Source: Allosphingosinicella vermicomposti
GTDB lineage: Bacteria; Pseudomonadota; Alphaproteobacteria; Sphingomonadales; Sphingomonadaceae
Direction: 5' to 3'
Length of the DNA stretch: 64,000 nucleotides
Assembly: GCF_003012815.1 (NCBI RefSeq)
Contig: NZ_PXYJ01000001.1
Coordinates: forward strand, 1,054,001 to 1,118,000
The notes beneath the pieces were generated by a model. The model searched no databases and was not told where the DNA came from. It was given only the letters and a program-made list of their open reading frames with translations. Of this stretch, positions 7,236 through 54,150 are shown in pieces (position 1 is the first letter of the stretch; each line of letters starts with the position of its first letter). The position numbers and the translations under genes were made by a program.

Positions 7236-7257
7236 TCTTCAAATATTCCAATCTTTT

Positions 7258-7336
7258 CGTCACTCCGGCGAAAGCCGGAGTCCCGTGGAAGTTCCGTGCG
7301 GGCAGAAGGAGATTCCGGCTTTCGCCGGAATGGCGG
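7258..7336. repeat. Family C palindromic repeat
   Basis: CGTCACTCCGGCGAAAGCC at the left and GGCTTTCGCCGGAATGGCG at the right are inverted copies. It sits in the coaX-rnj gap. Unlike the nuo copies it does not form an ORF linking its two neighbours. Confidence 0.8.
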
Positions 7337-8938: not shown

Positions 8939-9640
8939 CTAAATCAGAAATACGTCACCGGCATTAACAATGCGCGTGGAGCCATCCGCGATCCGCAGGC
9001 GCAGCGCGCCTGTTTCGTCCAACCCATCGAACAGCCCTTCCACCTTCTCGCCCGCAGCAGCGGCGGTTAGGGCGGTGCCGATTGGGTGGGACGCAGCAAG
9101 CCAGCGGTCACGGATGACCCGCAGGCCTTCATTGCGCCAGCGCCCGAGCCAGCGCGCAAACGCATCGGCCAGCGCGTCGAGGAAGGTGGCGGGATCTGGC
9201 GCGACACCCGCGAGGGCCGCGACGCTGGTGGTCGGCCGCTCCAGCGTCTCCGGATGATGAGCGAGGTTGACGCCGAAGCCGATCACCACGGCATCGCCCG
9301 ATCGTTCGAGGAGGATACCGGAAAGCTTCGCGCCGCTCGCCAATATGTCGTTCGGCCACTTGATGAGCAGAGGCGCGTCTGGCGCATAGAGGCCGATAAT
9401 TTCGTGAAGCGCGACAGCGGCGGTCAACGCCAGCGTATGTGCAGGCGGGTCGCCGGGCTGCACGCGCACCAGGGTGCTGGCGTAGAGATTGCCCGGCGGC
9501 GATTGCCATTCGCGGCCCTGGCGTCCCCTGCCCCCGGTCTGCCGGTCGGCGCGCAGCCAGGTGCCCTCCGGCGCGCCATCCCGGGCGAGCGCGGCGACAT
9601 CGTCGTTGGTGCTGCGCGTCTCCGGGACGGAGCGGATCAG
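8939..9640 (-). CDS. birA: Biotin--[acetyl-CoA-carboxylase] ligase, probable CTG start
   Basis: Attaches biotin to the carrier protein of acetyl-CoA carboxylase. In this frame the biotinyl-AMP loop GRGRQGREW, the substrate-binding KWPNDI and the C-terminal SH3-like domain are all visible, and no N-terminal DNA-binding domain is present (a monofunctional ligase). The first ATG/GTG/TTG in frame is GTG at 9467-9469, which would remove the essential GRGRQGREW loop. The reading frame above that holds only CTG or ATC candidates up to a stop. I chose CTG at 9638-9640 because it gives MIRSVPETRSTND, the usual family start, and overlaps the nuoN stop as CTGA. The length is 233 aa, normal for the short form. 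Confidence 0.85.
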   Translation of the reverse strand: MIRSVPETRSTNDDVAALARDGAPEGTWLRADRQTGGRGRQGREWQSPPGNLYASTLVRVQPGDPPAHTLALTAAVALHEIIGLYAPDAPLLIKWPNDILASGAKLSGILLERSGDAVVIGFGVNLAHHPETLERPTTSVAALAGVAPDPATFLDALADAFARWLGRWRNEGLRVIRDRWLAASHPIGTALTAAAAGEKVEGLFDGLDETGALRLRIADGSTRIVNAGDVFLI

Positions 9641-14713: not shown

Positions 14714-15019
14714 TCAGCCCTTCATCTGGTTGACGTCGTCGACCGCGATGGTGCCGCGGCCACGGAAGTAAATGACGAGGATGGCGAGGCCGATGGCGGC
14801 TTCGCCAGCGGCGACGGTCAGCACGAACATCGCGAACACCTGCCCCACCATATCGCCGAGATAAGCGGAGAAGGCGACGAGGTTGATGTTCACGGCGAGC
14901 AGGATCAGCTCGATCGCCATCAGGATGACGATGATGTTCTTCCGGTTGAGGAAGATACCGAGCACGCCGAGCACGAACAAGATCGCGCTAACAACGAGAT
15001 AGTGGCCAAGGCCGATCAT
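14714..15019 (-). CDS. nuoK: NADH-quinone oxidoreductase subunit K
   Basis: 101 aa with three transmembrane helices, the normal size. NuoK is a small membrane subunit of complex I that contributes conserved glutamates to the proton path, here in [20 protein letters not shown]. It has its own ribosome site (GGAGG). The ATG overlaps the end of a 43-aa ORF formed by the family B repeat between nuoJ and nuoK. The first nine bases, ATGATCGGC, are identical to the nine bases that overlap the nuoJ stop. Confidence 0.96.
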
Positions 15020-15048
15020 GCCCGTCCTCCGCTATAGAGTGTACCAAT

Positions 15049-15123
15049 CCCGTTCGTGTCGAGCGTAGTCGAGACACGCATCTGCCGGGTGGGCCGCTTC
15101 TCGACTTCGCTCGAAGCGAACGG
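15049..15123. repeat. Family B repeat inside the nuo operon, forming a nuoJ-nuoK linking ORF
   Basis: CGTTCGTGTCGAGCGTAGTC and its inverted copy flank a short centre. On the minus strand an unbroken ORF (15016-15147, 43 aa, beginning MIGISSAQPFASSEVEKR and ending LYSGGRA) starts at an ATG overlapping the nuoJ TGA and stops at a TGA overlapping the nuoK ATG. It therefore links the two genes with ATGA at both ends. Whether the peptide is made or stable is unknown. Confidence 0.75.
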
Positions 15124-15143
15124 TTGTGCAGAGGAAATGCCGA

Positions 15144-15755
15144 TCATAGCTCCACCCCCTGCCCGATACCGGGGTTCATGTTGCGGGTCGCCTCTTCCGG
15201 ACGGCGGCGGTTCTGCTCAGACGGGTTTTGCGGACGAAGGCCGCTGCGGGTGCGATGCGTCAGAACGATCGCGCCGATCATCGCGACGAGAAGAACGAGG
15301 CCAGCCGCCTCGAAGATGTAGAGATAGCGCGTGAAGAGGACCGTCCCAAGTGCCTCGATATTCGGGACAGAAGGATCGACCGGCGCCGCCTTGGAAGCGA
15401 CCGAGACGCCGCCCGCATTCCAGGCGGCCACCGCGAAGATCATCTCGGCGAGTAGGACGACCGCCATCAGGGCGCCGAAGCCCGCATAGCGCGCGAAGCC
15501 CGCCCGCATCTCCGCGAAATCGACGTCGAGCATCATGACGACGAAGAGGAACAGCACCGCGACCGCGCCGACATAAACGATGACGAGCAGCATAGCGATG
15601 AACTCGGCGCCGAGGATCAGCATCAAGCCCGCCGCGTTGAAGAAGGCGAGGATCAGCCACAGCACGCTGTGCACCGGGTTGCGCGACAGGATCGTCAGCG
15701 CACCGCTGGCGATCACGATCGTCGCAAACAGGTAGAATGTGAACGTCTGTATCAC
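15144..15755 (-). CDS. nuoJ: NADH-quinone oxidoreductase subunit J
   Basis: 203 aa, five transmembrane helices; membrane subunit of complex I. IQTFTFYLFATIVIASGALT opens the protein. IVYVGAVAVLFLFVVMMLDV (about 64-83) is the family hallmark, including the pi-bulge helix. The start is GTG at 15753-15755, preceded by an AAGGGG-type ribosome site; a longer in-frame reading upstream has no support. The stop TGA overlaps the ATG of the linking ORF described under the adjacent repeat. nuoI ends 35 bases upstream. Confidence 0.95.
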   Translation of the reverse strand: MIQTFTFYLFATIVIASGALTILSRNPVHSVLWLILAFFNAAGLMLILGAEFIAMLLVIVYVGAVAVLFLFVVMMLDVDFAEMRAGFARYAGFGALMAVVLLAEMIFAVAAWNAGGVSVASKAAPVDPSVPNIEALGTVLFTRYLYIFEAAGLVLLVAMIGAIVLTHRTRSGLRPQNPSEQNRRRPEEATRNMNPGIGQGVEL

Positions 15756-15790
15756 GTTTCTATCGTGCCCCTTCAGATTCGGCTGGCGGC

Positions 15791-16273
15791 TTAACGGTAA
15801 GGCGCATCGGCGGCAATGTTCGCGGCCAAGACCCGCTCCCATTTGTCGCCGTTTTCAAGGAGCTTCGCCTTGTCGTAGATAAGCTCCTCGCGCGTTTCGG
15901 TCGAAAATTCGAAATTCGGTCCTTCAACGATGGCATCGACCGGGCAGGCTTCCTGACAGAGGCCGCAATAGATGCACTTCGTCATGTCGATGTCGTAGCG
16001 CGTGGTGCGGCGGCTGCCGTCCTCGCGCGGTTCGGCCTCGATGGTGATGGCGAGCGCCGGGCACACCGCTTCGCACAATTTGCACGCGATGCAGCGTTCC
16101 TCGCCATTGGGATAGCGGCGCAGCGCATGTTCACCGCGGAAACGGGGCGACAGCGGGTTCTTCTCATAAGGATAGTTGATCGTCGCCTTGGGCTTGAAGA
16201 AATATTTCAAGGTTAGCCAATGCGCCTTCACGAACTCCCAGAGGGTGAAGGATTTGATCCAGTGCGCGATCAT
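15791..16273 (-). CDS. nuoI: NADH-quinone oxidoreductase subunit I
   Basis: 160 aa. Carries iron-sulfur clusters N6a and N6b in the hydrophilic arm of complex I. Two classical 4Fe-4S motifs are present: [16 protein letters not shown] and [16 protein letters not shown]. The N-terminus [19 protein letters not shown] is the alphaproteobacterial form. The start is set by the four-base overlap with the nuoH stop (ATGA). Confidence 0.97.
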
Positions 16274-17316
16274 GCGAGCGCTCCGTAACGGGTGATCATA
16301 AGGTAACCGGACACGATCGCCACCCAGAGAAGGGCGAAGGGCAGGAAGATCTTCCAGCCCAGCCGCATCAGCTGGTCGTAGCGGAAGCGCGGCACGGTCG
16401 CCTTCACCCAGGAAAAGATGAAGAAGAAGATGAATATCTTGGCAAACAGCCAGATGATGCCGGGCACCACATAGAGCGGCGCCCAGTCGATAGGCGGCAA
16501 CCACCCGCCCCAGAAGAGCGTAGCGTTCAATGCGCACATCAGCAGCACGTTGCCATATTCGCCGAGCCAGAAGAGCGCGAAGCTCATCGAGCTATATTCG
16601 GTCTGGTAACCGGCAACGAGCTCGGATTCCGCCTCCGTGAGGTCGAACGGCGCGCGTGCGGTTTCGGCCATGGCGGAGATGAGAAAGATCACCGCCATCG
16701 GGAACAGCAGGGGATTGAAGCCGAAGCCGTTCAAGAAGAACACGTGGCTCTTCTGCATGGCGATAATGCCCTGCAGGTTGAACGTGCCTGCCCATAGGAT
16801 CACCGTGATGAGGACGAAGCCGATCGAGACTTCATAGCTCACCATCTGCGCGGCCGCGCGGAGCGCCGAGTAGAAGGGATATTTGGAGTTGGACGCCCAG
16901 CCCGCGATAATTACGCCGTAAACGCCGAGCGAGGAAGCCGCGAGGATATAGAGCAAGCCTACGTTGATGTCGGCGAGCACCATGTCCGGCCCGAACGGGA
17001 TCACCGCCCAGGCGATGAGCGCGATCGTAAAGGTGATGATTGGCGCCAAGAGGAACAGCCCGCGATTGGCCGAGGACGGGATGATGGTTTCCTTGAGGAA
17101 CACCTTCAGGCCATCCGCGAAGCTCTGCAGCAGGCCAAAGGGGCCGACCACGTTCGGCCCGCGCCGCAGCGCCATCGCCGCCCAGATCTTGCGATCGGCA
17201 TAGATGATCATAGCGACCGCCAGCATCAGCGGCAGCGCGATCATCAGGATGAGGATGAGGGTCGAGACGAACCAGCCGAAGCCGTAGCCAAGCTGACCCT
17301 GGAACCATTCGGTCAT
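16270..17316 (-). CDS. nuoH: NADH-quinone oxidoreductase subunit H
   Basis: 348 aa, eight transmembrane helices; forms the quinone chamber at the junction of the two arms of complex I. Visible family motifs are [20 protein letters not shown] (about 52-71), the acidic loop [20 protein letters not shown] (about 214-233) and [19 protein letters not shown]. Its ATG overlaps the stop of the ORF formed by the upstream family B repeat, and its stop overlaps the nuoI ATG. Confidence 0.97.
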
Positions 17317-17331
17317 GCTTGTGCCCCCTCT

Positions 17332-17404
17332 CCGTTCGCTTTGAGCGAAGTCGAGAAGCGTGGCGCAGTCACAAACGTGTCTCGACTACGCTCGACACGA
17401 ACGG
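17332..17404. repeat. Family B repeat inside the nuo operon, forming a nuoG-nuoH linking ORF
   Basis: Inverted arms TCCGTTCGCTTTGAGCGAAG and GACTACGCTCGACACGAACGG-type. On the minus strand an ORF at 17313-17426 (37 aa, beginning [17 protein letters not shown] and ending [11 protein letters not shown]) begins on the nuoG stop (ATGA) and ends on the nuoH start (ATGA). Confidence 0.75.
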
Positions 17405-17422
17405 CGTTTGTGGAAAGCGCCA

Positions 17423-19444
17423 TCATTCCGCGGCCTCCGCAAAGTCTTCCCCGTGCAGGATTTCAGCCGAGCAGCGCCGCAGCGTGGGCGAGGATCGTGC
17501 GATCGGGTTGGTGAGGTAGAAATCCTTGATCGGATAGGCGACTTCCGTGCCCTGCGCGATCGCTTCAGCCTTGAGCGCGGGCGGCGCCCAATCGAAGCGG
17601 ACAAGGCCTGCTTCTGCAAAGGCCGGATATTCCGCGAACAAAGCCGTGCGAAGCTCGCCGAAGCTGTCGAACGGCAGCGGCTTACCGAGCACCGCCGAAA
17701 GCGCGCGGAAGATCGACCAATCCTCGCGGGCATCACCCGGCGGGAAGATCGCCCGTTCGCTATATTGCACTCGGCCTTCGAGGTTCACGTAGATGCCGTG
17801 CTTCTCGGTATAGGCCGCGCCCGGCAGGATCACGTCGGCACCATGCGCGCCCTTGTCGCCATGATGGCCGACATAGACCTTGAAGCTCTTGTCGAAGGGC
17901 GAAAGGTCCGCCTCGTCCGCGCCGAGCAGGAAGAGCAATTTCGGCGCCTTCTCCGCCAGCGCCGCCATGCCCCCGGCAAGCGCATAGCCGAGCATCAGCC
18001 CGGCCGTGCGCGCAGCGACGGTGTGGAGGACGTTATAGCCGTTCCAGTCGCCCCGGATGAGGTTGAGGCTGTCGACCAGCGCGAGGCTCGCGGCCTGGCC
18101 GCCCGGCACCTTCAGCGCCGAACCGCCGACGATCATCGCCGGACGCTCGGCCTTCGTCATCGCGTCCGCCGCCGCCTTTGGCAGCTTGGCGAGCAGCGAC
18201 ATGTCATTGCCCAGCCATTCCACCGGATAGGTGAGATCGACTTCCGGCCCGATCGCAAAGACCTTCGCACCCTTCTTCACCGCCTTGCGGATGCGGGTAT
18301 TGACGAGGCTTGCTTCCCAGCGCGGATTGGTGCCGACGAGCAGGATCGCATCGGCCGTCTCGATGCCAGCGATGGTCGTGTTGAAATTGACCGCCGCGAT
18401 GTTGGTCGCGTCATAGGCAAGGCCAGTCTGGCGGCCTTCGATGAGGTTCGAGCCGAGCGATGCGAGCAGCTTCTTCGCCGCATACATGGTCTCGACGTCC
18501 ACGAGATCGCCCGCGACGGCCGCGACGCTGTCACCCGCCTTCTTGGCGACTTTGGCGATGGCATCGAACGCCTCTTCCCAGGTCGCGGCCTGGAGCTTGC
18601 CGCCCTTGCGCACCCACGGCCGGTCGAGCCGGTTCCGGGTAAGGCCATCGACCATGTGGCGCGTCTTGTCGTGCGCCCATTCCTCATTCACCTCTTCCGA
18701 GATGCGGGGAACGACGCGCATCACTTCGCGCAGGCGGCTGTCGATGCGGATATTGGTGCCGACGCCGTCGCTGACGTCGATGCCCGGCACCTTGGAAAGC
18801 TCCCACGGCCGCGCCTCGAACGAATAAGGCTTCGAAACGAGCGCGCCCACGGGGCAGAGATCGACGACATTGCCCGAAAGCTCGGACGTCACCGCGCCTT
18901 CGAGGTAGGACGTGATCTGCATATTCTCGCCGCGATAGATGGCGCCGATTTCCTCGACGCCCGCCACTTCCTCGGCGAAGCGCACGCAGCGCGTGCACTG
19001 GATGCAGCGGGTCATGATCGTCTTGACGACCGGACCCATATATTTCTCGGTCACCGCCCGCTTATTCTCGGCGAAGCGGCTGTGGCCCCGGCCATAAGCG
19101 ACTGCCTGGTCCTGCAGGTCGCACTCGCCGCCCTGGTCGCAGATCGGGCAGTCGAGCGGGTGGTTGATGAGCAGGAACTCCATCACCCCTTCCCGCGCCT
19201 TCTTGACCGCCGGAGACATGGTGGTGATTTCCTGGCCGTCGGAAGCGGGCAGCGCACACGAGGCCTGCGGCTTGGGCGGCCCCGGCTTCACCTCGACCAG
19301 ACACATGCGGCAATTGCCCGCGATGGTCAGCCGTTCGTGATAGCAGAAACGCGGAATCTCCTTCCCCGCCGCCTCGCACGCCTGCATCACAGTGGCGCCA
19401 ACGGGAACCTCGACCTCGATACCGTCTACTTTGACCTTGGGCAT
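17423..19444 (-). CDS. nuoG: NADH-quinone oxidoreductase subunit G
   Basis: 673 aa, the largest subunit of the hydrophilic arm, carrying several iron-sulfur clusters. The N-terminal 2Fe-2S ferredoxin domain shows CYHERLTIAGNCRMCLVEV (about 34-52). The His-ligated cluster motif is HPLDCPICDQGGECDLQDQA (about 94-113). A 4Fe-4S segment is MTRCIQCTRCVRFAEEVAG (about 144-162). A molybdopterin-oxidoreductase-like domain without cofactor follows to the end, as usual for NuoG. It starts three bases after the nuoF stop. Confidence 0.97.
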   Translation of the reverse strand: MPKVKVDGIEVEVPVGATVMQACEAAGKEIPRFCYHERLTIAGNCRMCLVEVKPGPPKPQASCALPASDGQEITTMSPAVKKAREGVMEFLLINHPLDCPICDQGGECDLQDQAVAYGRGHSRFAENKRAVTEKYMGPVVKTIMTRCIQCTRCVRFAEEVAGVEEIGAIYRGENMQITSYLEGAVTSELSGNVVDLCPVGALVSKPYSFEARPWELSKVPGIDVSDGVGTNIRIDSRLREVMRVVPRISEEVNEEWAHDKTRHMVDGLTRNRLDRPWVRKGGKLQAATWEEAFDAIAKVAKKAGDSVAAVAGDLVDVETMYAAKKLLASLGSNLIEGRQTGLAYDATNIAAVNFNTTIAGIETADAILLVGTNPRWEASLVNTRIRKAVKKGAKVFAIGPEVDLTYPVEWLGNDMSLLAKLPKAAADAMTKAERPAMIVGGSALKVPGGQAASLALVDSLNLIRGDWNGYNVLHTVAARTAGLMLGYALAGGMAALAEKAPKLLFLLGADEADLSPFDKSFKVYVGHHGDKGAHGADVILPGAAYTEKHGIYVNLEGRVQYSERAIFPPGDAREDWSIFRALSAVLGKPLPFDSFGELRTALFAEYPAFAEAGLVRFDWAPPALKAEAIAQGTEVAYPIKDFYLTNPIARSSPTLRRCSAEILHGEDFAEAAE

Positions 19445-19447
19445 GAC

Positions 19448-20740
19448 TTACTCCGCGGCCTCGAGGGCGCCGCCCTGCTTTTCGATGATGCGCCGCTCGA
19501 TTTCGGGGCGGAAATGGCGGACGAGGCCCTGGATGGGCCAGGCGGCTGCGTCGCCAAGGGCGCAGATGGTGTGGCCTTCAATCTGCTTCGTCACATCGAG
19601 CAACGTGTCGATTTCGCCGATATCGGCGTCGCCGGTGCGCAGGCGCTCCATGACACGCCACATCCAGCCGGTGCCTTCGCGACACGGCGTGCACTGGCCG
19701 CAGCTTTCATGCTTGTAGAAATAGGAGATGCGGCTGATCGCGCGGACGATGTCGGTGGACTTGTCCATGACGATGACGGCGGCGGTGCCGAGGCCGGAGC
19801 CAAGCGCGCGCAGGCCGTCGAAGTCCATCGGCGCGTCCATGATCTCCTTGGCCGGGACCAAGGGAACCGAGGAGCCGCCCGGAATGACGGCGAGGAGATT
19901 GTCCCAGCCGCCGCGGATGCCCCCGGCGTGCTTTTCAATGAGTTCGCGGAACGGGATCGACATGGCTTCTTCGACCACGCACGGCTTGTTCACATGGCCG
20001 CTGATCTGGAAGAGCTTGGTGCCGTGGTTGTTCTCGCGGCCGAAGCCCTTGAACCAGGCCGCGCCGCGCCGAAGGATGGTCGGCGTGACGGCGATCGATT
20101 CCACATTGTTGACGGTCGTCGGACAACCATAGAGGCCCGCGCCCGCCGGGAAAGGCGGCTTGAGGCGCGGCTGGCCCTTCTTGCCCTCCAGGCTTTCGAG
20201 AAGCGCCGTTTCCTCGCCGCAAATATAGGCCCCCGCCCCGCGATGGACGAAAACGTCGAAATCATAGCCCGAGCCCGCGGCATTCTTCCCGAGCAGGCCC
20301 GCATCATAAGCTTCCTGCACGGCGGCGAAGAGCGTCTCGGCCTCGCGGATGAATTCGCCGCGAATGTAGATGTAGGCGGCCCGCGCGCGCATCGCGAAAC
20401 CGGCGATCAAAGCGCCTTCGATCAGCTTGTGCGGATCGTGGCGGATGATCTCGCGGTCCTTGCAGGAACCGGGCTCGGATTCGTCGGCGTTGATGACGAG
20501 GAAGTTCGGACGGCCGTCCTTCGATTCCTTGGGCATGAAGCTCCACTTCATGCCGGTCGGGAAGCCCGCGCCGCCGCGGCCGCGAAGGCCGCTATTCTTG
20601 ATTTCCTCGATGATCTGGTCCTGCCCAAGCGCCATCAGGGCCTTGGTATTGTCCCAATCACCGCGCTTCTGCGCCGCCTTCAGGTTCCATGGCTGGAACC
20701 CGTAGACGTTGGTGAAGATGCGATCCTTGTCAGCGAGCAC
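19448..20740 (-). CDS. nuoF: NADH-quinone oxidoreductase subunit F
   Basis: 430 aa; binds NADH, FMN and the N3 4Fe-4S cluster. Motifs are [20 protein letters not shown] (FMN/NADH, about 52-71), [20 protein letters not shown] (about 167-186) and [11 protein letters not shown] near residue 345 (cluster N3). I place the start at GTG 20738-20740 because GGGGAGG lies just upstream; an in-frame TTG further up would fall on that ribosome site. The linking ORF from nuoE ends ten bases inside this gene. Confidence 0.95.
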
Positions 20741-20765
20741 GGGCCGCCTCCCCAAAGTTCAAAAC

Positions 20766-20847
20766 CCGTTCGGGCTGAGCTTGTCGAAGCCCTGCCTTTT
20801 CCCCCTTAAAAGAAGGGCAGCCCTTCGACAGGCTCAGGGCGAACGGT
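20766..20847. repeat. Family A repeat inside the nuo operon, forming a nuoE-nuoF linking ORF
   Basis: CCCGTTCGGGCTGAGCTTG and its inverted copy flank an AT-richer centre. On the minus strand the ORF 20730-20864 (44 aa, beginning MISSPAPFALSLSKG and ending FGEAARAR) starts at an ATG overlapping the nuoE TGA. It stops at a TGA inside the first codons of nuoF. Confidence 0.75.
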
Positions 20848-20860
20848 GCGGGTGACGAGA

Positions 20861-21535
20861 TCATTTCCACTCACCCCGATAATCGTGGTTTTCGGTCGCC
20901 ATTTCCTTGAGGCTGGTTGGGCCGCCTTCCGGGCAGCTCGTCTGGCGATCGATCTGCGGGCCGGCTTTCGGCATTTCGCCCTTCGCCATGGCTTCGAGGA
21001 TCGCGGTCATGCTCTCGAAGGTCAGGTCTTCGTAATTGTCGTCGTTGATCTGCACCATCGGCGCATTGGCGCAGGCGCCGAGGCACTCAACTTCGGTCAG
21101 CGTAAAGAGGCCGTCCGGCGTCGTCTGCCCCTTCTTCAGCCCCTTGGCATAGCAAGCGGCGAGCACATCATCCGATCCGCGAAGCATGCAGGGCGTGGTG
21201 CCGCAAACCTGCACGTGATGACGGCCGACCGGCTGAAGGTTGTACATGGTGTAGAAGGTCGCGACCTCGTAAGCCCGGATATAGGGCATATCGAGATATT
21301 TCGCGACATATTCGATCACCGGGACGGGCAGCCAGCCCTGTGTGTTGGTCTCCGCGCCCACTTGGCGCTGGGCGAGGTCGAGCAACGGCAGAAGCGCCGA
21401 ATGCTGACGACCCAGCGGATAGCGGCCGACGATGATCTTGGCCTGCGCCTCATTCTCCGAAGACCAGGCAAAGCCGCCCCAACGGGCGCGCAGTTCCTCG
21501 ATATCGGGAAGGCTGTTTGGAAGAATATCAGCCAT
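20861..21535 (-). CDS. nuoE: NADH-quinone oxidoreductase subunit E
   Basis: 224 aa, the 24-kDa thioredoxin-like subunit holding the N1a 2Fe-2S cluster. Ligand motifs are VQVCGTTPCMLRGSD and LGACANAPMVQIND. The ATG at 21535 ([11 protein letters not shown]) is preferred over a TTG three codons upstream. It overlaps the stop region of the preceding 58-aa ORF by eight bases. The C-terminal tail beyond the domain is polar, as in other alphaproteobacteria. Confidence 0.95.
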   Translation of the reverse strand: MADILPNSLPDIEELRARWGGFAWSSENEAQAKIIVGRYPLGRQHSALLPLLDLAQRQVGAETNTQGWLPVPVIEYVAKYLDMPYIRAYEVATFYTMYNLQPVGRHHVQVCGTTPCMLRGSDDVLAACYAKGLKKGQTTPDGLFTLTEVECLGACANAPMVQINDDNYEDLTFESMTAILEAMAKGEMPKAGPQIDRQTSCPEGGPTSLKEMATENHDYRGEWK

Positions 21536-21704
21536 TCTTGGCAACCTTCAATTTACGAGCGGCGGCTGCGACCACGACACCCGAGCCGACAAGAACGGCA
21601 ATCGTGTTCAAATCCACGCTGCGAAATAGCGCCATAGCTACGATCACCAGCGCACTGACAGCATAAATAGCAACCCAGAAGGCAATCGAATTAAAGCTCG
21701 TCAC
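21528..21704 (-). CDS. Small membrane protein encoded between nuoD and nuoE
   Basis: 58 aa with two hydrophobic segments ([20 protein letters not shown] and [15 protein letters not shown]) and a basic tail RKLKVAKNG, so probably a small inner-membrane hairpin. It starts with GTG overlapping the nuoD TGA (GTGA). Its TGA lies inside the start of nuoE (ATGGCTGA, eight-base overlap). Such tight packing on both sides argues that it is translated. I recognise no family. It could be an accessory or assembly factor of complex I, or simply an operon passenger. Confidence 0.7.
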
Positions 21705-22936
21705 CGGTCGCACTCCCCGAAAACGATGTCCATGGCGCCGAGGATCGCGGTGGCGTCGGCGAGCATGTGGCCCTTGGTCATGAAATCCATGGCCTGAAGG
21801 TGGCTGAAAGCGGTCGGGCGGATCTTGACGCGGTACGGTTTGTTGCTGCCGTCGGAGACGAGATAGACGCCGAATTCGCCCTTGGGGCTTTCGGTCGCGA
21901 CATAGACTTCGCCCGCGGGCACGTGGAAACCCTCGGTATAAAGCTTGAAGTGGTGGATGAGCGCTTCCATCGACTGCTTCATCTCGGCGCGCTTGGGCGG
22001 CACCACCTTGCGGTCGAGCGAAGCGATCGGGCCTTCCGGCATATCCTGAAGGCATTGCTTCATGATCCGCGCGGACTGACGCACTTCCTCGACGCGCACC
22101 ATCATGCGGTCGTAGCAATCGCCCTTGGTGCCGACCGGCACGTCGAATTCGACGCGGTCATACACGTCATAAGGCTGCGCCTTGCGGATATCCCACGGAA
22201 TGCCGGACGCGCGGATCATCGGGCCGGAGAAGCCCCAGGCGAGCGCATCTTCCTTCGACACCACGGCGATATCGACGTTGCGCTGCTTGAAGATGCGGTT
22301 GTCGACGACGAGGCTCATCGCATCCTCGAACAAAACCGGCAGACGCTTGTCGAGCCAGTCGGCAATGTCGGTGAGGAGCTTTAAGGGCACGTCCTGATGG
22401 ACGCCGCCGGGACGGAACCAGGCCGCGTGCATGCGCGCGCCCGACGCCCGCTCGTAAAAGTTCATCAGGTCTTCGCGCAGCTCGAACAGCCAGAGGTTCG
22501 GCGTCATCGCGCCGACGTCCATGACGTGCGAACCGATGTTGAGGAGGTGGTTCGAAATGCGCGTCAGTTCCGCGAAGAAGACGCGGAGATATTGGGCGCG
22601 GAGCGGCACTTCGAGGTCGAGCAATTTCTCGACGGCCAGCACATAGCTATGTTCCTGGCAGAGCGGCGAGACGTAATCGAGGCGGTCGAAATAGGGCAAC
22701 GCCTGCAGATAAGTCTTATATTCGCATAGCTTTTCGGTGCCACGGTGGAGCAGGCCGACATGCGGGTCCACGCGCTCGACAATTTCGCCGTCCAGCTCCA
22801 GCACAAGGCGAAGGACGCCGTGCGCCGCCGGGTGCTGCGGGCCGAAATTGATCGTGTAGTTCGCGATCTGCGATTCCGTCGCGCCGGTGCGGGCGACATC
22901 TTCTTCGCGGGCAAGCTGGTTCTGATCGGTATCCAT
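21701..22936 (-). CDS. nuoD: NADH-quinone oxidoreductase subunit D
   Basis: 411 aa, the 49-kDa subunit that forms the quinone-binding site with NuoB. The start of the domain [20 protein letters not shown] (about 29-48) holds the conserved HPAAHG loop. [33 protein letters not shown] and the C-terminal [14 protein letters not shown] are all family signatures. NuoC and NuoD are separate genes here, unlike the fused form of E. coli. The ATG overlaps the TAA of the linking ORF from nuoC (TAATG). Confidence 0.97.
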
Positions 22937-22951
22937 TACATCGCACCACTG

Positions 22952-23030
22952 TCGTTCGTGCCGAGCGCAGTCGAGGCGCGCACCGCGATCGTGCCAACGC
23001 CCCTCGACTTCGCTCGGGACGAACGGAGAA
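22952..23030. repeat. Family B repeat inside the nuo operon, forming a nuoC-nuoD linking ORF
   Basis: TCGTTCGTGCCGAGCGCAGTC and an inverted arm ending GGGACGAACGGAG. The minus-strand ORF 22936-23049 (37 aa, beginning [17 protein letters not shown] and ending LGTNDSGAM) starts on the nuoC stop (ATGA) and ends on the nuoD start (TAATG). Confidence 0.75.
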
Positions 23031-23045
23031 TGGAAAGGCGTGCCA

Positions 23046-23708
23046 TCATTTCTTCACCTCGCCCGCCTTGGCTGGTGTCGGCGCGCCCGGGGCCTCGCCC
23101 TGCACCTTTTCATCGCCCGGCGGGATATATTCCGCGCCCTCCCAAGGAGAGAGGAAGTCGAAGCTGCGGAAATCCTGGGCGAGCTTCACGGGTTCGTAAA
23201 CCACGCGTTTCTGCTCTTCGGAATAGCGCAACTCGATATAGCCGGTCAGCGGGAAGTCCTTGCGCTGCGGATGCCCCTTGAAGCCATAATCGGTGAGGAT
23301 ACGGCGCAAGTCCGTGTTGCCGCTGAACAGCACGCCGTACATGTCGAACACTTCGCGCTCCAGCCAGCCCGCGACCGGGAAGAGGCCCGTCACCGACGGC
23401 ACCGGCTTCTCATCGTCCGTCATGACGCGGACGCGGATGCGGTGGTTCTTCGTCACCGAAAGCAGGTGATAGACGACCTCGAACCGCTCTTCGCGCTCCG
23501 GATAGTCGACGCCGGCGATTTCCATCAGTTGCTGATAGTCGAACTGGTCGCGAAGCGTGCGGATCACGTCGACGATGCTCTCGCGCTGGACGGTGATGGA
23601 CACTTCATCCACCTCGTCCTTCGCTTCGATGAAGGCGGCGCCGATCGCGGCCTTTACCTCGTCGATGATGCCTTCGCGAGCAGCGATCCTGGGTGCGCTA
23701 TTGTTCAT
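23046..23708 (-). CDS. nuoC: NADH-quinone oxidoreductase subunit C
   Basis: 220 aa, the 30-kDa subunit of complex I. The family signature is visible as [20 protein letters not shown] (about 117-136) followed by [20 protein letters not shown]. The C-terminus is a Pro/Gly-rich tail ([16 protein letters not shown]). It starts three bases after the nuoB stop. Its stop codon lies in the ATGATGG that opens the nuoC-nuoD linking ORF. Confidence 0.96.
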
Positions 23709-24269: not shown

Positions 24270-24637
24270 TCGAGCGCCCCTTTCTTCCAGGCATAAACAT
24301 AGCCGAGCGTCAGTTCGGCGAGGAAAATCATCATCGCGGTCCAACCGGCAATGCCGATCGCGCCGAGCGACACCGCCCACGGAAAGAGGAAGGCCGCTTC
24401 AAGGTCGAAGATGATGAAGAGAATGGCGACGAGGTAGAAGCGCACGTCGAATTGCGAACGCGAATCCTCGAAGGCCGGGAAGCCGCACTCATATTCGGCG
24501 AGCTTGTCCGCATAAGGCTTATGCGACCCCGTGAAACGGGACGCGATCATCGGCAGAGCGACGAACGCCGCTGACAAGGCCAACGCGACGCCCAGGAACA
24601 ATAGGATCGGCAGATATTCGGCGGCTTGAGGCGCCAT
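24260..24637 (-). CDS. nuoA: NADH-quinone oxidoreductase subunit A
   Basis: 125 aa, three transmembrane helices; membrane subunit near the quinone site of complex [21 protein letters not shown] (about 45-64) and [20 protein letters not shown] (about 67-86) are diagnostic. It is the first gene of the 14-gene nuo operon, so the promoter should lie in 24638-24838, where a family C repeat also sits. Confidence 0.96.
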
Positions 24638-24752
24638 CGAGAGTCTCCGGGAGCTTCAGTTGAGGCGGCTTCTAGGACTGCCTCCGTCGAGAGGCAAGGC
24701 GAGAAGCAGTGAGAATGAATCGCAAGAACGAGGTGCGCCGACCCGCTCCCAC

Positions 24753-24831
24753 CGTCATTCCGGCGAAAGCCGGAATCTCTTTTCACTTTAGAGCAAAAGG
24801 CAGTGAGATTCCGGCTTTCGCCGGAATGACG
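24753..24831. repeat. Family C palindromic repeat
   Basis: CGTCATTCCGGCGAAAGCC and GGCTTTCGCCGGAATGACG form a perfect inverted pair around a 40-base AT-richer centre. It separates the suhB-like gene from nuoA and could terminate the former. Confidence 0.85.
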
Positions 24832-29094: not shown

Positions 29095-29126
29095 GCCGCT
29101 CCTCCACATTCCCCTCCCTCTCCGCC

Positions 29127-29207
29127 CGTCACCCCGGCGAAAGCCGGGGTCTCAGGACAGAAAGACACCTCTTTCGTCACGAGATTCCGGCTTTCGCCGG
29201 AATGACG
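29127..29207. repeat. Family C palindromic repeat
   Basis: CGTCACCCCGGCGAAAGCC and GGCTTTCGCCGGAATGACG, inverted. It lies between fda and the downstream small membrane protein on the minus strand. Confidence 0.85.
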
Positions 29208-36713: not shown

Positions 36714-36786
36714 CCCGCTAGGGCTGAGCCTGTCGAAGCCCGCTCCAGCGCGCGCGAACGTCCTTCGACACGCTCAGGACTAACGG
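36714..36786. repeat. Family A palindromic repeat
   Basis: CCCGCTAGGGCTGAGCCTGTC and GACACGCTCAGGACTAACGG, inverted. It lies between the DUF2842 gene and the convergent tRNA-Asp. Confidence 0.85.
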
Positions 36787-36852
36787 TGGAAGGAGTGTAG
36801 AAAACATCCAAACGCGATGCGCGCCATTTCCCGATCTAAAATCCAAGGAAAA

Positions 36853-36929
<77 letters not shown>

Positions 36930-54037: not shown

Positions 54038-54069
54038 TGTCCATCCGCCTCCTCCGTCTCCTCTCCTCA

Positions 54070-54150
54070 CGTCACCCCGGCGAAAGCCGGGGTCTCGGGA
54101 CGACGAAGGCGCTTTCACGTCATAACACCCCGGCTTTCGTCGGGGTGACG
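54070..54150. repeat. Family C repeat forming a yidC-engB linking ORF
   Basis: CGTCACCCCGGCGAAAGCC and GGCTTTCGTCGGGGTGACG, inverted. The plus-strand ORF 54037-54168 (43 aa, beginning MSIRLLRLLSSRHPGESRG and ending FVGVTEVGDE) starts at an ATG overlapping the yidC stop (TGATG). It stops eight bases into the engB gene. Confidence 0.75.

Follow-up and report, generated by a model that had tools for sequence, protein, structure and literature searches.

The window, a stretch of 64,000 nucleotides from the Allosphingosinicella vermicomposti genome (2.51 Mb), carries the nuo operon for complex I on the minus strand, from nuoA at 24637 to nuoN at 9637; positions below are those of the window. Palindromic repeats lie at four of its gene junctions. 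Repeat insertions have probably been kept at such junctions where they leave a stop-free mini-cistron that would hand ribosomes from one gene to the next. Among sphingomonad nuo loci, the one phase that would link the neighboring genes is open in 67/71 palindromic inserts at tight junctions, against 9/21 at the nuoI/J junction, where the genes rarely overlap. The first-pass annotation of this DNA had proposed that insertions preserving ribosome hand-over were retained and act as translated spacers, and this comparison supports the proposal.

The four linking open reading frames (ORFs) of 37-44 codons described in that annotation were confirmed on the minus strand. Each starts at the ATG of an ATGA that overlaps the upstream TGA, and two repeat families behave in this way, again as described. 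Family A (core TCGAGCGNAGTCGAG, in inverted pairs) is present at three junctions. The nuoC/nuoD ORF (22936..23049, 37 aa, inverted cores at 22961..23017) runs from ATGA at the nuoC stop to TAATG on the nuoD start, while the nuoG/nuoH ORF (17313..17426, 37 aa, cores at 17341..17395) and the nuoJ/nuoK ORF (15016..15147, 43 aa, cores at 15059..15114) have ATGA at each end. Family B (core CTGAGCCTGTCGAAG) occupies nuoE/nuoF, where the ORF (20730..20864, 44 aa from the ATG, cores at 20775..20837) starts within ATGA at the nuoE stop; the automatic ORF list begins it at a GTG two codons 5' of the ATG. As claimed, the ORFs end on the next start (3/4) or among its first codons, the nuoE/F stop beginning 8 nt past the first base of the nuoF GTG. 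The repeat-bearing stretches between the genes are 106-124 nt long. The closest relative by NuoD, genome G008 (96%), shares the C/D, G/H and J/K inserts at equal gap lengths (109, 106 and 124 nt) with the ORFs open, the one at nuoJ/K starting with GTG. Its nuoE/F junction holds a different stretch of 381 nt.

Linking ORFs were compared among 109 sphingomonad nuo loci. This set is 110 less Sphingomonas deserti GL-C-18 (L051), dropped as a duplicate of L048 (genome G015 of the genus set); across 19.5 kb the two nuo regions share at least 99% identity. L079, labelled only Alphaproteobacteria, was kept, and loci L080-L130 from other Alphaproteobacteria stayed outside the comparison. At least one junction was obtained from 108/109 loci, some of which are fragments. 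Inserts of 40-250 nt were tested, shorter and longer ones being left out, and were called palindromic if they had arms of at least 8 and a folding energy of -0.4 kcal/mol per nt or lower. The linking phase is that of the NTG overlapping the upstream stop. It was compared with the two other phases, and a phase was scored as open when it was stop-free to within 15 nt of the next start. Because nuoD/E, E/F and F/G contain small accessory genes they do not enter the pooled test, although E/F is one of the four window cases. Junctions of the nuoI/nuoJ class, whose 35-nt spacer in the window (15756..15790, minus strand) is repeat-free, served as the uncoupled control.

The 71 palindromic inserts at tight junctions range from 41 to 238 nt and come from 33/108 loci, and different palindromes fill the same junctions in other species. 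The two phases other than the linking phase are open in 29 and 26 of them. Shuffling each insert gives an expectation of 36.5/71 open in the linking phase (P ~5e-17, treating inserts as independent). When one insert was taken per same-junction homology cluster, 33/36 were open (P 1.3e-7), and random picks per cluster gave a mean of 33.5 and a lowest value of 32.

Counting all inserts, the linking phase is open in 17/18 at C/D (other phases 7 and 9), 30/31 at G/H (15 and 11), 6/6 at H/I (3 and 4), 15/16 at J/K (8 and 6), 14/15 at K/L (4 and 3), 7/7 at L/M (4 and 4), 3/3 at M/N (1 and 2) and 1/1 at A/B (1 and 1). The junctions left out of the pool give 28/28 at D/E (4 and 14), 41/47 at E/F (9 and 29) and 12/12 at F/G (3 and 2). 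At the I/J control the figure is 29/55 (35 and 29), and its palindromic inserts, whose 21 upstream stops are TAA or TAG, show no linking-phase bias, the other phases being open in 13 and 15. Two side observations concern individual junctions. The gap at the nuoI/J palindromic inserts of relatives is divisible by three in 14/21. At nuoJ/K, loci L035 and L045 have short inserts of 60 and 28 nt that resemble a duplicated start region, and in L035 two mini-ORFs are, by eye, chained through ATGA overlaps.

Most nuo junctions in sphingomonads are stop/start overlaps, often ATGA, at which a ribosome ending one gene could start the next. In the mechanism that we propose, several palindromic repeat families that look unrelated would have inserted at these junctions on many occasions among sphingomonads, and the insertions kept would be those leaving a stop-free mini-cistron in the correct phase. 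A ribosome finishing the upstream gene would begin again on the NTG overlapping its stop and read about 15-80 codons made up of the repeat and its flanks. It would terminate at the start of the following gene, or right next to it, and initiate once more at that start. The encoded peptide would be of no importance. From sequence comparison we infer translation of the linking ORFs, re-initiation at both of their ends and purifying selection as the filter.

Openness by itself could also be explained by ribosome cover, in which any open frame across the insert prevents Rho-type polarity and exact hand-over is incidental. A linking ORF covers the insert as well, so the two are not fully separable by comparison. 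Cover, however, needs no fixed phase, yet gap length modulo 3 equals 1 in 58/71 palindromic inserts (30/36 clusters, P 9e-10). Furthermore, the linking-phase stop falls within -5 to +8 of the next start in 63/71, compared with 1 and 5 for the other phases. Cover alone is therefore an unlikely explanation.

To look beyond nuo, 36 stretches of the same genome (444.5 kb) were analyzed. They were picked around family A matches, together with the window, and are not a random sample. Genes were called with a simple codon-usage caller, which recovered 14/14 nuo genes with the starts used here. Within this sample 158 core clusters were placed, belonging to families A and B and to family C, another palindromic family with core CCGGCGAAAGCCGG. 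Counts were made of multi-core repeats lying between two genes of the same strand at gaps of up to 160 nt, with single-core repeats left out. After NTGA stops the linking phase is open in 19/20 cases (other phases 10 and 7), or 15/16 (8 and 5) with nuo excluded. After other stops it is open in 12/22, the other phases in 9 and 15. The linking-phase stop lies within -5 to +8 of the next start in 16/20 cases after NTGA versus 3/22 after other stops, and excluding nuo leaves 12/16 versus 3/22 (Fisher P 2e-4). With gaps extended to 260 nt, 20/22 are open after NTGA and 14/30 after other stops. Family C has a linking ORF in 6/6 cases after NTGA stops. The first-pass annotation had proposed a count of whether uncoupled repeats link equally often; neither the I/J inserts nor the repeats after other stops in this sample do so.

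Empty junctions were examined in the relatives, a comparison also suggested in the first-pass annotation. The nuoG/H gap is -4 in 71/108 loci, the nuoJ/K gap is -4 in 84/108 and the nuoC/D gap is -4 or -1 in 69/102. Because these junctions mostly overlap in relatives, the repeats probably entered direct stop/start overlaps, which frequency among relatives suggests as the ancestral state. Translational coupling would be in use at these -4 sites. Empty nuoK/L junctions mostly have no overlap, the commonest gaps being 7, 4 and 6. At nuoK/L of relatives (e.g. L034, L039, L044 and L046), NTGA stands upstream of 11/12 palindromic inserts versus 18/91 empty junctions (P 1.7e-6, uncorrected for kinship). 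Among the loci inspected, nuoK ends in GGG-TGA in 4/4 with an insert and in GGC-TGA in 13/16 empty ones, a synonymous difference in the last glycine codon.

If the repeats were directed to NTGA overlaps and brought their own ORF, the same architecture would follow from the insertion reaction and not from selection. This is the model that PMC12548453 gives for mycobacterial interspersed repetitive units (MIRUs), with insertion at start codons and an element ORF coupled at -4. The two ends of nuoJ/K linking inserts share 3-8 nt from the TGA on, 8 in one case. Against directed insertion, the same architecture is found with palindromic inserts of differing sequence and many lengths, and copies of these families also turn up at convergent or divergent sites and within genes in the own-genome sample. 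The same families also lack a phase bias after non-NTGA stops between same-strand genes, and a selective filter is therefore preferred over a special element. Site-directed insertion is thus rather improbable.

Target-site duplication, a trait of miniature inverted-repeat transposable elements, had been a candidate for the origin of the upstream ATG, suggested by the nuoJ/K insert of the window, where ATGATCGGC, a 9-nt match, is present at both ends. End identity was measured for all linking inserts, palindromic or not, at C/D, G/H, J/K, K/L and L/M. Its mean within species is 2.59, 3.13, 4.47, 3.57 and 2.86 nt, respectively, and between species 2.51, 3.11, 4.37, 3.27 and 2.79 nt. The within-species excess of only 0.02-0.30 nt gives no clear sign of a general target duplication, and the candidate was not taken up as a general rule.

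Chance is a far weaker explanation. GC-rich repeats could be so poor in stops that any phase is usually open, and family A does have 4.8/6 frames open over about 80 nt, compared with 4.0 in shuffles. Neither family B nor family C is stop-poor, with 2.7 and 2.8 of 6 frames open compared with 2.8 and 3.6 in shuffles, and the bias is limited to one phase and to tight junctions, which makes chance very hard to credit.

It is equally improbable that the linking ORFs encode functional small proteins. Small ORFs that are not repeats do occur with the same overlaps at nuoD/E and nuoE/F. The one at nuoD/nuoE in the window (21528..21704, minus strand, 58 aa, hydrophobic by eye) has the coupled layout, with a GTGA start on the nuoD stop and a stop within the first nuoE codons. 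The three linking ORFs shared by the window and G008 are equal in length and differ by 49 substitutions, 15/20/14 at codon positions 1/2/3, so there is no third-position bias; in nuoK the same pair differs by 2/1/16. The four linking peptides had no match in Pfam or NCBIfam at E 0.1, and in other species the same junctions are occupied by other repeats. A functional peptide is disfavored by the codon-position counts, which come from one species pair, together with the lack of a family match. The linking peptide appears free to change: in this pair openness is conserved and the peptide sequence is not. As a separate observation, the nuoD/E, E/F and F/G junctions of relatives hold small ORFs that vary, look hydrophobic on inspection and show the same coupling of their start to the upstream stop.

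Shine-Dalgarno-like motifs precede the next-gene start at 43/60 palindromic-insert junctions (C/D, G/H, J/K and K/L), compared with 15-25% of random positions within inserts. They are also found at the linking start in 10/12 C/D and 24/24 G/H inserts.

Several results weigh against selection for hand-over. The four window cases by themselves are weak evidence, because two of the inserts (nuoC/D and nuoJ/K) pass the openness test in all three phases, and the chance of all four linking phases being open, given the open phases, is P 0.11. Across the loci 4/71 inserts are not open in the linking phase, 2 of them following TAG stops, and at B/C the linking phase is open in 7/12 of all inserts (other phases 4 and 8). 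Part of the stop-on-start score comes automatically if NTGA opens the next gene. For the nuoI/J inserts this measure gives 4/21 for the linking phase and 13/21 and 5/21 for the others, the 13/21 arising because a next gene beginning NTGA itself supplies the stop; openness and phase are therefore the stronger test. The I/J inserts form only 5 sequence clusters, so the 21 rows overstate how many independent events the control contains. The blastn clusters themselves can lump distinct insertions of a family together or divide a single event. Homologous same-junction pairs of unequal length differ by a multiple of three in 31/43 cases, not in all, and outside nuo the gap modulo 3 equals 1 in only 9/16 cases after NTGA (8/22 after other stops). 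The Shine-Dalgarno-like motif before the next start is commoner at empty junctions (271/337), and the linking start is without one in 12/12 nuoK/L and 8/12 nuoJ/K inserts. Taken together, the data still point to selection for a ribosome path with hand-over at both ends.

Repeats of families A and B are also found inside genes. In the own-genome sample 13 multi-core elements lie in 11 called genes, one case (L208) being doubtful since the repeat merely overlaps the called start. Paired copies fall in called genes in 9/39 cases for family A and 4/28 for family B. Ten of the 11 genes were scanned against Pfam and all matched; the gene names are our reading of the matches. Two repeats each are present in valS, for valyl-tRNA synthetase (L201:3531-6398), and in an RNB exoribonuclease gene (rnr, RNase R-like, L199:3733-6231). 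The other matches are a PutA-type proline dehydrogenase, CoaBC/Dfp, two 2-oxoacid dehydrogenase E2 proteins, a class V aminotransferase, an ABC ATPase, an MFS protein and YbeY (remaining loci L197, L207, L210, L214, L202, L219, L191 and L192).

ValS was aligned with 23 readable relatives; L226 (own genome), L237, L238, L240 and L241 were ignored because the wrong ORF had been taken. At the first ValS site there is no long insert in G008 and 19 others, and L227, L228 and L244 have other sequence. The second site is empty in G008, holds a similar, family B-like insert in L232 and has other long inserts in L227 and L242. In RNase R of G008 the stretches matching residues 1-245 and 284-831 abut; the first RNase R insert is therefore absent in G008. 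At the second insert the matches break at about residues 421-448 in G002, G004 and G009, and G003 and G007 match through. A broader reading, which we advance tentatively and consider somewhat doubtful, is that translation-transparent mobile palindromes exist across sphingomonads. Unlike families would be kept only at sites that ribosomes can traverse, whether in frame within essential proteins (valS, rnr) or, at coupled junctions, as mini-cistrons of the start-on-stop type. Where the upstream gene lacked a start, a silent change such as GGC to GGG in the last glycine codon of nuoK, making GTGA, would accompany the insertion.

PMC12548453 describes MIRUs as repeats, apparently mobile, that land at start codons and carry an ORF coupled at -4, an arrangement read there as a way of inserting with minimal effect on expression. 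The likeness is one of arrangement: the repeat ORF overlaps the stop and start of its neighbors and sits at overlap sites of the coupling type. MIRUs are the closest precedent and share the working principle. What differs from the MIRU as described there is the host group (Alphaproteobacteria), the variety of unlike palindromic repeats and the absence of phase bias in the same families after non-NTGA stops; some copies also lie inside genes.

Rickettsia palindromic elements are palindromic repeats in frame inside protein genes. The first-pass annotation had named them as the nearest precedent. The MIRU is closer, but part of that comparison stands, since families A and B do have in-frame copies within genes, valS and rnr among them, and these in-gene copies are behavior like that of the Rickettsia elements. 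The difference is that linking ORFs lie between genes as separate mini-cistrons, and the likeness is again one of placement.

The repeats also recall repetitive extragenic palindromic (REP) sequences and bacterial interspersed mosaic elements in being short palindromes of high copy number, often in inverted pairs; the family A core matches the genome at 82 sites, 59 of them exactly and 23 with a single mismatch. Unlike the systems in which REPs accompany a REP-associated tyrosine transposase (RAYT), the own genome gave 0 matches in a search for the Y1 transposase (PF01797), and some paired copies lie in called genes. A RAYT as resident mobilizer was rejected on this result. PF01797 matches were found in 11/26 genomes of the genus set and 5/14 control genomes. 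According to PMC12306157, ribosomes of E. coli are stalled by REPs lying within 15 nt of a stop; a linking ORF would instead carry ribosomes through the hairpin. Some in-frame miniature inverted-repeat transposable elements are reported from another bacterium in PMC5896051. In the literature searched, which was mainly open-access, no publication was found on sphingomonad repeats of this kind or on MIRUs with DTGA.

Elsewhere in the window, family C copies lie at 7248-7335, 24743-24831, 29117-29207 and 54060-54150. An Rfam scan of the window at gathering thresholds found no known RNA family save one tRNA (minus strand), and a family B repeat pair lies 67 nt from it, in the region of 36715-36788 and 36856-36929.

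These junctions amount to dozens of natural experiments on translational coupling, in which unlike inserts entered the same junctions and nearly all are in one phase, and the same operon supplies a non-overlapping junction without bias as a contrast. Annotators should be aware that mini-ORFs derived from repeats at these sites might be translated and yet not be functional proteins. If the reading is correct, strong selection would act on hand-over between the overlapping genes of a real operon, and MIRU-like behavior would need only a filter and no special element.

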